A stretch of 25,636 nucleotides of DNA from a virus. The translations under genes were made by a program, and so were the position numbers. Under the pieces are notes generated by a model. The model did not search any database. It saw only the letters and a list, made by a program, of their open reading frames with translations, and had not been told where the DNA came from. Of this stretch, positions 13,988 to 20,310 are shown piece after piece. Each line of letters begins with the position of its first letter. Within the stretch, counting starts at the first letter, position 1. Where the stretch lies: positions 1 to 25,636 of the IMG/VR virus record IMGVR_UViG_3300032245_000151. One strand, 5' to 3'.

Positions 13988-14338
13988 CTAATTGATACCT
14001 GAGTTGCTATCCCCTGATAGATGGGTCTTGAGCCTGTGGCAGTTGGCACAGAGGGTTCTCAGGTTTGCTGGGTCATTGTTAAAGCGGTCACCGTCTACGT
14101 GGTCTACATCTAATTGACTGATGTGTACTGGCTTAAATCCACAGTCCTCGCAGTAGTCCTTACGGTATGCGTGGTAAGGAGAACGAATCTTCATCTGGTT
14201 AATCTTGTATATGGTATTGCATCTGTATCTACCTGTTACTGGCTTTGATTTATCCCGCGTCTTTAACTTAGTGGGGCCACAAACAGTGCACATTCCTGTG
14301 CGTTCTTCTTCGTTGATCTCAGAGAGTCTGTGTTTCAT
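13988..14338 (-). CDS. HNH endonuclease
   Basis: A 116-residue protein. The HNH core reads DYCEDCGF (C63, C66), QLDVDHVDGDRFNNDP (catalytic H80, N88) and LRTLCANCHRLKTH (C97, C100, H101): the beta-beta-alpha metal fold with a structural zinc. An extra CTVCG near residue 17-20 and an RC at 40 may form a second zinc site. It is transcribed leftward against the flanking modules and overlaps the upstream zinc-ribbon gene by 20 bases. It may be a free-standing homing nuclease or a packaging-associated HNH; lacking a terminase neighbour here, the homing type seems more likely. Confidence 0.88.
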   Translation of the reverse strand: MKHRLSEINEEERTGMCTVCGPTKLKTRDKSKPVTGRYRCNTIYKINQMKIRSPYHAYRKDYCEDCGFKPVHISQLDVDHVDGDRFNNDPANLRTLCANCHRLKTHLSGDSNSGIN

Positions 14339-14573
14339 CTTTATCTACTGGACAAGGGACAGTTACGATGTTGCCACAGTTGACACAGGTACCATCAAGA
14401 AAGTACCAGACCAGTTCGTGGTCTTCAAATGATGCCATTATAGAAAAGACTTGTGAGCCACAAGGACAGACGTGTACTGGACCCAAACCTCTTAAATCTG
14501 TACCAAATTTCTCTGGTAGTTTAGACTTAAATTTTGGCAGCCTTGGTAGACGGAACCGCACAGTCAGTACCAT
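14319..14573 (-). CDS. Zinc-ribbon protein
   Basis: An 84-residue protein with two cysteine pairs: VHVCPCGS (C36, C38) and GTCVNCGN (C63, C66). Between them lies SFEDHELVWYFLD, as in actinophage proteins of the type DLRGLGPVHxCxCGxxxFxxxxSFDDxEIxxYxLDxxCxxCG. The N-terminus is basic and Pro/Lys-rich (RFRLPRLPKFKSKLPEKF). The start chosen (MVLTVRF) has AAGGGGG nine bases upstream; an earlier in-frame ATG 42 bases upstream lacks one. Nucleic-acid binding is plausible. First gene of the leftward pair with HNH. Confidence 0.72.
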   Translation of the reverse strand: MVLTVRFRLPRLPKFKSKLPEKFGTDLRGLGPVHVCPCGSQVFSIMASFEDHELVWYFLDGTCVNCGNIVTVPCPVDKDETQTL

Positions 14574-14622
14574 ACCATCGTGCCCCCTTGGGGCACCCTG
14601 TTTTATTCGCCTCACGGCTCAT

Positions 14623-14628: not shown

Positions 14629-14672
14629 GTAACCAGTAGGTGTTGCTAACGCAACGACACGCCGATCTCTAG

Positions 14673-14678
14673 TATGAT
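14673..14678 (+). promoter_or_regulatory. Candidate -10 box of early operon (leaderless start)
   Basis: TATGAT (5 of 6) lies six bases before the ATG of the Ntn hydrolase gene, which has no ribosome-binding sequence. Transcription starting at the ATG would give a leaderless mRNA. The -35 region is weak: a TTGCTA is present but about 24 bases upstream, too far for a standard spacer. Confidence 0.45.
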
Positions 14679-14684
14679 TCCAGT

Positions 14685-15242
14685 ATGACAACCATCGCAG
14701 CGATAGAAGGAATTGACTACGCAGTTCTAGTAGCAGATTCTCAGATCACAGAAGATAATCTCGTGACGTTAGCAACTAGTACACCTAAGATCGTTGAGGT
14801 TGGCAAGTTTCTATTAGGTATTTCGGGCGATACACGACCAGGAGATATACTTGCGTACAACTGGAAGCCACCGCTTTATCGCGGTGAGGATCCAGTACAA
14901 TTTATGGGCAAGAAAGTTATACCCAGTATCAACCAAGCATTTACCGATAACAACTACGACTACAACAAGGTGGACAAAGATGGTGGCTTCGATTATCTCA
15001 TTGCTTTTAACAGTAATATCTTTCGTATTGCTTGTGATCTCTCTTTTTTCCAAGCAAATCACGGAACGTACGGCATTGGTAGTGGGGGGCAGTTTGCTCT
15101 TGGCTACCTGTCTTCAATTGTCAAACCTGATATGGACGTAGAGTACGCAAAGCGACACGCCCGTAAAGCCGTAGAGATTGCGTCGGTCCTTGACGCTAAC
15201 ACTGGTAAGCCCATACAGTTAGTAGTCCAGGAAAGGGTATAG
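14685..15242 (+). CDS. HslV/proteasome-beta-like Ntn hydrolase
   Basis: A 185-residue protein, close to HslV in length. It begins MTTIAAIEG. Removing Met would expose Thr1, as in HslV (TTIVSV). VLVADSQIT places Asp at mature position 17, and TPKIVEV places Lys at mature position 34, corresponding to the HslV T1/D17/K33 catalytic set; GIGSGGQFALGYL matches the HslV/proteasome GSGG turn. The predicted activity is threonine peptidase, presumably as a ring. No HslU, Mpa/ARC or other AAA partner is in the window, so it may use a host unfoldase or act alone. It heads the early operon, behind a leaderless-type promoter. A non-peptidase Ntn hydrolase is possible. Confidence 0.8.
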   Translation: MTTIAAIEGIDYAVLVADSQITEDNLVTLATSTPKIVEVGKFLLGISGDTRPGDILAYNWKPPLYRGEDPVQFMGKKVIPSINQAFTDNNYDYNKVDKDGGFDYLIAFNSNIFRIACDLSFFQANHGTYGIGSGGQFALGYLSSIVKPDMDVEYAKRHARKAVEIASVLDANTGKPIQLVVQERV

Positions 15243-15244
15243 GA

Positions 15245-15382
15245 ATGTACAAAGAAAAAAGGGTAGGAAAGATGTGGCTGTCTTATGGCTGCAACTTCAA
15301 GCAAATAAGTGTTGGGCTTTTTATTGACAAGTACCGCATCAGCATTGACTTAGTATTCTTTTTTGTAGTACTGGAGTTCTGA
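15245..15382 (+). CDS. 45-aa hypothetical protein
   Basis: The product MYKEKRVGKMWLSYGCNFKQ continues ISVGLFIDKYRISIDLVFFF and ends VVLEF. The FxQISVGLxIDxYRIxIDLxFxxVxLEF pattern of alternating hydrophobic residues is a small all-beta phage protein type I recall in actinophages; it is not a transmembrane helix although it is hydrophobic. It starts two bases after the protease gene stop, and its stop overlaps the next ATG (TGATG). Function unknown. Confidence 0.6.
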   Translation: MYKEKRVGKMWLSYGCNFKQISVGLFIDKYRISIDLVFFFVVLEF

Positions 15383-15534
15383 TGGAGTTCAATACATACG
15401 ATTATGTAAAGCCAGAGTTCAAGGAGATTATAGCAACAGGTGAATATGCTGCTCACTACTGGTTTGAGCAGGGTTGGAAAGCCTGTAGACTTGCTTTCTT
15501 ATTACACGATCAAGCAGGGAAGGAAGCGGTATGA
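15382..15534 (+). CDS. 50-aa hypothetical protein
   Basis: The product MEFNTYDYVKPEFKEIIATG... continues EYAAHYWFEQGWKACRLAFL and ends LLHDQAGKEAV. It is a compact helical protein with one cysteine and no recognised motif. Both ends overlap neighbours by one or four bases (TGATG upstream, ATGA downstream), which supports it as a real coupled gene between the 45-residue protein and the Cas4-like nuclease. Confidence 0.6.
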   Translation: MEFNTYDYVKPEFKEIIATGEYAAHYWFEQGWKACRLAFLLHDQAGKEAV

Positions 15535-16475
15535 GCACTGATCCAAAGGAACTATTACTTACTGCGCTACGTGCGGGAGATGCGAAACGTTCACGATCTA
15601 CACAGGTACAGATTGGTCCATCAGAATTAGGTGGCTGTCGTCGTAAGGTCTGGTACAGACTTAACGATCAACCTGAAACTAATGAGAACGAGATGAAGTT
15701 AGCAGCCATTATGGGTACTGCTATCCACGCAGAAATTGAACGATCATTAGCAGATAACCCCGATGTAATGATTGAGACATCTGTTGAGTACAACGGTATG
15801 AAGGCACACATTGACTGCTATGTACCAGGTACTGGCGATGTCATTGACTGGAAGACAAGCAAGGTCAAGAACCTTTCATACTTCCCATCAACACAACAGC
15901 GTTGGCAAGTACAGACTTACGGTTACCTGTTAGCAAAGAACGGTCACGATGTAAAGCGTGTATCTCTAGTTGCTATAGCACGTGATGGTGATGAACGTGA
16001 TATTAAAGTACATACAGAAGATTACGATGAGAGCATTGCGTTACAAGCATTGAACTGGTTAGCATCAATCAAGACCGCGACAGAGGCACCAGATCCAGAA
16101 CGTGATGCTAGTTACTGTAAGTTCTATTGTAAGTTCTACGACGCATCAGGTGAGATGGGATGCGTTGGTATAAAAAAAGAACATACGGCAGTCAGTGATG
16201 TACTCATTGATGATGCTGATATTGACAGAAACGCACTGCTGTATCTACAGTTAGCAGCGCAGATAAAAGAGTTAGAAAAGCACCAAGATTCATTGAAGGC
16301 TTCTTTCGAGGGACTACTAGGTACAACACCTAGCGGGATAGAAGTCAGTTGGACAACTGTCAAGGGTCGTGAAAGTATTGACAGTGAAGAGGTAGAGAAA
16401 CTGCTTGGGTTTGTACCTAAGAAGTTTGGTAATGAATCACAGCGGTTACAAATCAAACAAACTGGAGGAAAGTAA
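15531..16475 (+). CDS. Cas4/RecB-like PD-(D/E)XK exonuclease
   Basis: A 314-residue protein with the RecB-family nuclease motifs: IGPSELGGCRRKVWY (C36), MGTAIHAEIE (H66), HIDCYV (D95), DVIDWKTSK (D106, K108) and the helix QVQTYGYLLA (Q127, Y130). C36 with C196, C200 and C211 (CKFYCKFY...MGC) forms a Cas4/AddB-like four-cysteine set likely to hold a 4Fe-4S cluster. It likely degrades or processes DNA ends in recombination-dependent replication. The CKFY unit is duplicated in tandem. The C-terminal 80 residues include a coiled-coil segment (QLAAQIKELEKHQDSLKAS). It overlaps the previous gene by four bases. Confidence 0.85.
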   Translation: MSTDPKELLLTALRAGDAKRSRSTQVQIGPSELGGCRRKVWYRLNDQPETNENEMKLAAIMGTAIHAEIERSLADNPDVMIETSVEYNGMKAHIDCYVPGTGDVIDWKTSKVKNLSYFPSTQQRWQVQTYGYLLAKNGHDVKRVSLVAIARDGDERDIKVHTEDYDESIALQALNWLASIKTATEAPDPERDASYCKFYCKFYDASGEMGCVGIKKEHTAVSDVLIDDADIDRNALLYLQLAAQIKELEKHQDSLKASFEGLLGTTPSGIEVSWTTVKGRESIDSEEVEKLLGFVPKKFGNESQRLQIKQTGGK

Positions 16476-16875: not shown

Positions 16876-17145
16876 ATGCGGGAACCTCGTGAGTACGAGA
16901 ACCCGTTATGTGCACAGGTAGGTGGAGACTTCTGGTTCCCTGAAAAAGAAAAGGGATTAGTAAGTCCAGCAGATGTTCAATTTGCGAAGTCAATTTGTAA
17001 GTCTTGTATTCATAGAACTGAATGCGCTGAGTGGGGAATCCGCAAAGAGCAGCACGGTATATGGGGTGGGCTTGCACCACGTGAACGTCGCGTGATGAGA
17101 AGGCATCGCAAGATAAATCTTGGAGGGGATGAGGAAGTTGCTTAA
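16876..17145 (+). CDS. WhiB-family (Wbl) iron-sulfur transcription regulator
   Basis: An 89-residue protein with the full Wbl signature: LCAQVGGDFWFPEK (C12), the CxxCxxxxxC cluster in SICKSCIHRTEC (C41, C44, C50), the GIWGG turn (61-65) and a basic C-terminal LAPRERRVMRRHRK for DNA contact. The four cysteines hold a 4Fe-4S cluster; Wbl proteins bind the host principal sigma factor region 4 and redirect transcription. Phage Wbls can block host WhiB function, as known for mycobacteriophage WhiBTM4. It overlaps the helicase gene. This gene is the strongest evidence for an actinobacterial host. Confidence 0.93.
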   Translation: MREPREYENPLCAQVGGDFWFPEKEKGLVSPADVQFAKSICKSCIHRTECAEWGIRKEQHGIWGGLAPRERRVMRRHRKINLGGDEEVA

Positions 17146-19300: not shown

Positions 19301-19476
19301 TTTGTAGTAAATGTATTAACGCAGGTGTGGAAAATGCATCAGGACATTACAAACGTGCGGCTAAGTATCACGATAATTGCAATGACAAGGGGTGTGTATG
19401 TCAGCACAGGACTGGTCCAGGGTACGTAAAGCGGGAAAATTCAAAGGTCCCGTTGATGCAAACACAATCCCCATAG
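19297..19476 (+). CDS. 59-aa zinc-binding-like protein overlapping primase start
   Basis: The product MICSKCINAGVENASGHYKR has CxxC at residues 3 and 6; it continues AAKYHDNCNDKGCVCQHRTG with more Cys/His, then PGYVKREN. The CxxC...Y..A...H..C.....CxCQHxTGPG arrangement is familiar in small actinophage proteins. Its last 79 bases overlap the primase zinc-finger gene in another frame, so the final 20 residues are constrained by both. Start overlaps the previous stop (ATGA). Nucleic-acid or protein contact via zinc is likely but untested. Confidence 0.65.
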   Translation: MICSKCINAGVENASGHYKRAAKYHDNCNDKGCVCQHRTGPGYVKRENSKVPLMQTQSP

Positions 19477-19775
19477 GAGCAATCGTTCTCCATTATGGAG
19501 GAGAAGTAAGAGAAGGTAGAAGCGCATCTGTTAGGTGCTGCATCCACCCAGATAAAAGGCGTAGTGCTGTCATCAATACTCACGACAACCTGTTCTTTTG
19601 TCACACCTGCGGTAAGGGTGGCAACGCAGTAAATGTTGTCAGTATCATAGAGAACTTGGAGTTTAAGGATGCACTCAAACGAGCAATCGAAATCGTTGCT
19701 GGAAGCGGTCACACACTACAGCAAAAGCCTGGACGAAAAGGCTCTGGAATATCTCGAAGGACGTGGGATATCTGA
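19398..19775 (+). CDS. DNA primase, CHC2 zinc-finger domain subunit
   Basis: A 125-residue protein holding the DnaG-type CHC2 finger: VRCCIHPDKRRSAVIN (C48, H50) and LFFCHTCGKGGNAVN (C68, C71), followed by the helix FKDALKRAIEIV typical of the finger's C-terminal side. In DnaG this domain recognises the initiation trinucleotide. Here it is a separate gene; the Toprim part is in the next frame with a 107-base overlap. The ATG chosen has AAGGGG about six bases upstream; an in-frame GTG six bases earlier is less well placed. The tail KPGRKGSGISRRTWDI looks like a natural terminus. Confidence 0.82.
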   Translation: MSAQDWSRVRKAGKFKGPVDANTIPIGAIVLHYGGEVREGRSASVRCCIHPDKRRSAVINTHDNLFFCHTCGKGGNAVNVVSIIENLEFKDALKRAIEIVAGSGHTLQQKPGRKGSGISRRTWDI

Positions 19776-20310
19776 GGAGATCGCACTACAGTATTCATTA
19801 GGTCTAGTCACTGACCCTATCAATGGGCACGAGAATCACATTGGTTGGCTATCTATCCCATACCTGACTGCACTTGGTATGTGTGTTGGTGTTAAGTTTC
19901 GTAGGCTAGATGATGGAAAGCCTAAGTACGGCGCACCCACAGGACAGAAGGGTCACCTGTTTAATGTTGCTGATGTAACTATTGATTCACATAGGATTGT
20001 TGTATGTGAAGGTGAGTTAGACGCAGTAGTTGTATCAGGTTTGATTGGGATACCTGCTGTTGGTGTGCCAGGAGTACAGGCTTGGAAGCCGCACTTTGTT
20101 AAGTTGTTTACTGGTTACGACACAGTTTATATTGTAGGTGATAACGACATCAAGGATGATGGCACCAACCCAGGAGCAGAGTTCTCTCGTCGTGTGTCAC
20201 AAGAGGTAATGAACTCACGTATAGTATCGTTGCCTCCATCAATGGACATTAATGACTTCTACCTTACACACGGTAAGGATGAGGCGTTGAAATTATTTGG
20301 AGGCGTGTGA
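19669..20310 (+). CDS. DNA primase, Toprim domain subunit
   Basis: A 213-residue protein with the DnaG-like order: ALEYLEGRGISEEIALQYSL (primase core helices), GWLSIPYLTALG, KYGAPTGQKGHLFN, then Toprim motifs VVCEGELDAV (E114, D118) and YIVGDNDIK (D158, D160), and a final IVSLPPSMDINDFYL. The catalytic acidic residues are present, so it should be an active RNA-primer polymerase centre. It begins inside the CHC2 gene, one frame over, with GGAG seven bases ahead of the ATG. Separate genes with coupled translation, or a frameshift fusion, are both possible. Confidence 0.85.
   Translation: MHSNEQSKSLLEAVTHYSKSLDEKALEYLEGRGISEEIALQYSLGLVTDPINGHENHIGWLSIPYLTALGMCVGVKFRRLDDGKPKYGAPTGQKGHLFNVADVTIDSHRIVVCEGELDAVVVSGLIGIPAVGVPGVQAWKPHFVKLFTGYDTVYIVGDNDIKDDGTNPGAEFSRRVSQEVMNSRIVSLPPSMDINDFYLTHGKDEALKLFGGV

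Follow-up and report, generated by a model that had tools for sequence, protein, structure and literature searches.

The window, i.e. the whole 25,636-nucleotide stretch analysed here, appears from its sequence to derive from a freshwater virus of actinobacteria that carries its own single-subunit proteasome-like enzyme with intact active-site residues. The gene is the open reading frame at 14685-15242 on the plus strand, which encodes a proteasome-family protein of 185 aa (the peptidase). The initial annotation had proposed a gene here, and both profile matches and purifying selection indicate that it is real. The protein matched PHROG 1040 'peptidase HslV family' (E 1.7e-27) over residues 1-183, i.e. 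most of its length, and scored 48.1 bits against the Pfam Proteasome profile PF00227, above the curated cut-off of 22.4 for the superfamily. Comparison of the gene with 80 close relatives from viral contigs gave a median nucleotide identity of 87%, a median dN of 0.049 and a median dS of 0.55 (dN/dS about 0.09); the low dN relative to dS points to strong purifying selection on the frame. The records examined held one copy of the gene per genome. We favour, at somewhat better than even probability, the reading that the phage encodes a proteasome-family peptidase with a single subunit type, belonging to the compact group that resembles HslV and the betaproteobacterial proteasome homologue BPH, and that it works with no dedicated phage unfoldase during infection.

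An AlphaFold2 model of the peptidase built from a diverse 64-row alignment was confident (pLDDT 91.8, pTM 0.87) and had the strand and helix order of the proteasome fold; a narrow alignment (A4) had given a poor model (pLDDT 54), a problem that the more diverse alignment solved. Superposition with VIA-align on yeast beta5 gave a Z of 20.2 and paired chain residues 1-183 of beta5 with residues 2-185 of the model, which places Thr2 of the model (Thr1 after removal of the Met) at the catalytic Thr1. The two structural checks that accompanied the initial annotation therefore came out in its favour, with an Ntn alpha-beta-beta-alpha fold predicted and Thr1 aligned with the active site. Counting the Met, the residues that fit the active site are Asp18, Lys35, Gly45/48, Ser133, Asp170 and Thr173, with Thr1 standing immediately after Met1. 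All of the features first noticed in the protein, i.e. Thr1, Asp17, a Lys near 34 and the GSGG turn, were present, the lysine being Lys34 once Met1 is removed and the equivalent of Lys33. A Foldseek search of the PDB returned BPH as the top match (TM 0.77, 22-23% identity), followed by HslV and 20S subunits, and the helices at residues 50-58 and 70-88 are both present in the model.

The active site is also conserved across the family. An MTT start was found in 248 of the 251 located copies, the other three being distant homologues from one Pseudoalteromonas phage and two plasmids, and no propeptide separates the Thr from the Met in the located copies. In the 248-row alignment Thr1 was invariant, and the equivalents of Asp17 and Lys33 showed zero substitutions in the phage rows, apart from a small number of gaps. 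Ser and Thr both occur at the Ser129 and Ser169 positions. Copies from the window's lineage have Asp at the Asp166 position, where 59/81 copies of its sister lineage have Asn. Arg51 and Pro62-Pro63 were nearly invariant in the same alignment, and E. coli HslV has no counterpart of them. The loop after helix 2, on the pore side, has 13 residues in the window's peptidase compared with five in E. coli HslV; most copies from the other clades have 10-19 residues here, mostly acidic, whereas the loop of the window's lineage is only mildly acidic. Sequence and model together show an Ntn fold with an N-terminal Thr, no propeptide and a retained Thr1/Asp17/Lys33 set.

The protein had been described as an HslV-like threonine hydrolase. 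The fold and the catalytic residues bear this out, and the name HslV is too specific, because the scores against HslV profiles were far below their cut-offs (23.0 bits against 157.75 for TIGR03692, and 23.8 against 137 for NF003964, which argues against an HslV orthologue) and the best PDB match in Foldseek was BPH. Neither is the peptidase a 20S beta orthologue, as it scored 33.4 bits against the archaeal beta profile TIGR03634 (cut-off 224) and lacks a propeptide. With HslV (ClpQ) of the HslVU system it shares the fold, the N-terminal Thr, the GSGG turn and a single subunit type, but its phage relatives have no HslU and its loop after helix 2 is longer; with 20S beta subunits it shares the fold (Z about 20) and the catalytic residues, but it lacks the propeptide and an alpha subunit. 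The likeness to BPH (PDB 5ovs, 5ovt and 5ovu) extends to Thr1/Asp17/Lys, a pore loop longer than that of HslV, though only mildly acidic in the window's lineage, and the absence of a propeptide, the start Met of BPH being removed; BPH differs in being bacterial and in having a solved ring structure, whereas a ring of the phage protein is predicted by analogy. The PPH and AAH proteins, group I proteasome homologues with no assigned function and no AAA+ partners (Fuchs et al. 2021, PMC8665760), are likewise carried by phages. Membership of the PPH type was rejected, as these proteins have about 140 residues and lack helix 2 (PMC8665760), whereas the 185 aa peptidase has this helix. The nearest named counterparts are the PHROG 1040 copies of phage DSL-LC01, Planktophila phages E7 and F5 and Arthrobacter phage Hum25, which share the family, the MTT start and the catalytic residues; those outside the window's own lineage are only 26-34% identical to the peptidase and have another gene neighbourhood, and the leaderless promoter predicted here is a further difference.

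The relatives, at least 553 to 578 of which were confirmed per scan, were sampled from three viral clades. In the window's clade, whose 83 rows include a few distant homologues, the gene stands behind the lysis genes and a pair of leftward ORFs, and ahead of a Cas4-like exonuclease gene in 79/83 loci. In the window the leftward ORFs, next to the promoter, encode an HNH endonuclease (13988-14338, minus strand) and a conserved 98-aa protein (14319-14615, minus strand) that occupies position -1 in 67/83 loci. The first large gene after the peptidase encodes a Cas4/RecB-like (PD-(D/E)XK) exonuclease (15531-16475, plus strand), and is followed by genes for a gp49-like protein, WhiB, a DnaB-like helicase, a RusA-like resolvase, a primase and sigma-like proteins. 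The WhiB-type regulator (16876-17145, plus strand; 51.5 bits against PF02467) is an actinophage marker. Between the peptidase and exonuclease genes lie two small ORFs (45 and 50 aa; 15245-15534) with Shine-Dalgarno-like starts, and the small genes of the relatives differ here. The primase is seemingly encoded by a pair of overlapping ORFs at 19392-20310, one for an N-terminal part of the zinc-binding type and the other for a Toprim part. A lysis-type protein encoded at 13243-13725 matches VanY weakly. Two phage lineages share it at 80-86% identity, compared with only about 25-52% for their other proteins, which suggests either recent exchange or unusual constraint. The major capsid protein of a related locus (L170:5891-7069, minus strand) carries an Ig-like or Thr-rich domain inserted in its C-terminal half, and the fragment at 4-633 of the window matches virion-structural and tail-fibre PHROGs at this inserted domain.

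The gene has a different position in the other two clades. In the sister clade (81 loci) it lies directly after the portal gene in 79/81 loci, behind terL. This clade includes Planktophila phages E7 and F5, which were the first phages of Ca. Nanopelagicales to be cultured (PMC10202952). The peptidase gene therefore does not lie among early genes in every lineage. What follows the portal in the window's lineage is the gene for a 74-aa protein with no family matches (71/80 loci, L264-L343). In the third clade, which consists of larger phages such as DSL-LC01, the gene often lies between a metallophosphoesterase gene and portal or scaffold-like genes, or beside WhiB. A metallophosphoesterase gene was in the neighbourhood of the peptidase in 45/87 larger-phage loci, and directly before it in about half of this clade (L222:2838-4001 and like loci); a functional link between the two is possible. 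The window's and sister clades share a collinear genome plan, with identities of 44-47% for terL, 50-52% for the portal, 45-49% for DnaB and 31-36% for the peptidase. Both lie on long branches of the peptidase tree, which did not settle whether the gene was relocated or acquired twice. The peptidase looks near-universal in the window's lineage, because it was present in 7/10 contigs picked by their portal alone, including all six of at least 28 kb. The profile scan of bacterial genome contigs found one locus only (L169:6001-6627), on a Gammaproteobacteria MAG contig. Its product is 45% identical to the DSL-LC01 copy, and the contig may be misbinned phage DNA.

The region upstream of the gene suggests how it might be expressed. 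A terminator-like hairpin (GTGCCCC...GGGGCAC) with a T-rich tail at 14580-14606 on the plus strand lies between the late lysis genes and a new transcription unit. It is followed on the same strand by an inverted repeat (GTTGC-TAAC-GCAAC) and then a conserved CGACACGCCG, together at 14642-14664, and by a -10-like TANNNT box (TATGAT, 14673-14678) six bases before the ATG, with no Shine-Dalgarno sequence. Each of the 53 distinct upstream sequences from the window's lineage carries a TANNNT box at a distance of 6-7 bases from the ATG, compared with 10.5% of shuffles, although these sequences are related and the shuffles thus overstate their independence. A Shine-Dalgarno-like motif was found in only one of the 53, whereas such motifs precede most other genes of the window. 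A scan for consensus sigma-70 sites found none at the peptidase promoter, the TANNNT box having no standard -35 element. The inverted repeat was kept in 53/53 sequences, in each case with a conserved ACACGCCG or ACACACCG, while its arms differ (GTGTCG/CGACAC, CGTTGC/GCAACG and GTGTCGC/GCGACAC), and the element at 14642-14664 is probably an operator or part of the promoter. RNAalifold found no covarying helix in the upstream region, and it missed the inverted repeat because MAFFT misaligned the arms; inverted repeats were therefore counted directly. The sister clade differs, in that one of four tested Shine-Dalgarno motifs was present in 29/49 distinct upstream sequences (many with AGGGG) and the TANNNT box at the same spacing in only 2/49.

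The simplest reading of these sequences is that the peptidase gene, which is the first of a transcription unit in the window's lineage, has a dedicated promoter and a leaderless mRNA there. The gene had been placed at the head of the early operon. The hairpin, the promoter-like box and the replication genes downstream agree with a position at the head of an operon, while early expression is a suggestion from gene order, i.e. from the replication genes that follow.

In the reading that we favour, removal of the start Met would expose Thr1, and the subunits would assemble, by analogy with BPH or HslV, into a self-compartmentalising double ring in which Thr1 would hydrolyse peptide bonds. The peptidase would be made together with the replication genes from the leaderless promoter. 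It would attack unstructured or partly unfolded proteins of the host or phage by itself, or else work with a housekeeping unfoldase of the host. The roles suggested in the initial annotation, i.e. destruction of host defence proteins, tuning of protein turnover or mimicry of host subunits, are speculative. The initial annotation had seen no partner ATPase near the gene, which we confirmed at the locus; the window being a 25.6-kb fragment, the search was extended to 12 near-complete relatives (38-42 kb). No HslU- or Mpa-type ATPase turned up in these genomes, which gave no match to AAA_2 and only weak matches to AAA, those checked lying inside the DnaB-like ORF. BPH also has no known unfoldase, and it was inert on standard peptides and casein even though its Thr1 reacts with epoxomicin (PMC5777263). 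Peptidase activity is therefore not to be assumed for the phage protein, which may depend on a particular substrate or on an activator. We found no biochemical data in the literature on any phage member of the family, and the openly searchable literature on the function of phage HslV gave annotation only. The Asn at the Asp166 position in most sister copies and the existence of non-proteolytic relatives such as connectase were both counted against the favoured reading.

The peptidase could instead hijack or compete with host proteolysis, by docking on Mpa/ARC, ClpX or ClpC or by mixing with host proteasome subunits, and so redirect degradation. Many Actinobacteria have Mpa and the 20S proteasome, no unfoldase was found in the 12 near-complete phage relatives, and the phage WhiB and sigma genes show that other functions are directed at the host. 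Against this, Fuchs et al. saw no AAA+ partner that co-occurs with such phage homologues (PMC8665760), and our literature search found no paper on a Nanopelagicales proteasome. We consider this unlikely, while giving it more weight than any other alternative.

A lower probability attaches to a non-proteolytic Ntn hydrolase, the substrate of which would be a small molecule or one particular protein tag and the activity that of an amidase, acylase or ligase. Ntn enzymes catalyse varied reactions. Connectase is a proteasome homologue that acts as a ligase (PMC8665760), and the inertness of BPH on protease substrates (PMC5777263) and the nearly invariant Arg51 and Pro62-Pro63 are in keeping with such a role. 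The overall shape and the proteasome-type active site, including the Ser129 and Ser169 equivalents, nevertheless fit peptidases.

It is slightly less probable again that the enzyme is a prohead or scaffold protease, removing the scaffold or trimming head proteins during capsid assembly. In nearly all loci of the sister lineage, including cultured phage F5 (PMC10202952), the gene follows immediately on the portal, a usual slot for a prohead protease. In many larger phages the gene lies one to three genes before the portal and a scaffold-like gene, and the 12 near-complete relatives yielded neither an S78 nor a ClpP-type protease. The portal of the head module, however, matches the T7-like family phrog_104, and a small scaffold-like protein is encoded separately. 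The module has no recognised protease families and no obvious major-capsid prodomain, and T7-type heads are not known to need a protease. In the window's lineage, moreover, the gene lies outside the head module and before the replication genes. DSL-LC01 carries the peptidase gene as well as a portal-fused head maturation protease (S78-like at 19.9 bits, slightly short of the cut-off of 21 in Pfam, with a strong PHROG match). This second protease and the T7-like head module weaken the prohead-protease reading, and we do not favour it, although it is conceivable for the portal-adjacent copies. Least probable of all is a role as the capsid-assembly protease of an abundant family of freshwater actinophages, clearing scaffold in or around the prohead, a role that we know only for serine-type proteases.

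Phage proteasome homologues are already known and have been catalogued (Fuchs et al. 2021, PMC8665760), none that we found having a known function. As far as we could find in a mostly non-subscription literature, neither the occurrence of the family across freshwater actinophages nor its two genomic positions nor the putative leaderless promoter had been described. The results place a large, well-conserved group of these proteins in phages of abundant freshwater actinobacteria. Proteasome homologues, whether of the AAH or another type, are thus common in actinophages, whereas Fuchs et al. reported no Actinobacteria-specific phage with an AAH (PMC8665760). With two cultured phages (E7 and F5) and a cultured host, the activity of the enzyme, the timing of its expression, its presence in the virion and the need for the gene can be tested, and the role of the gene may be approached through the natural contrast between a lineage that has it at the head of an operon and a sister lineage that has it next to the portal.
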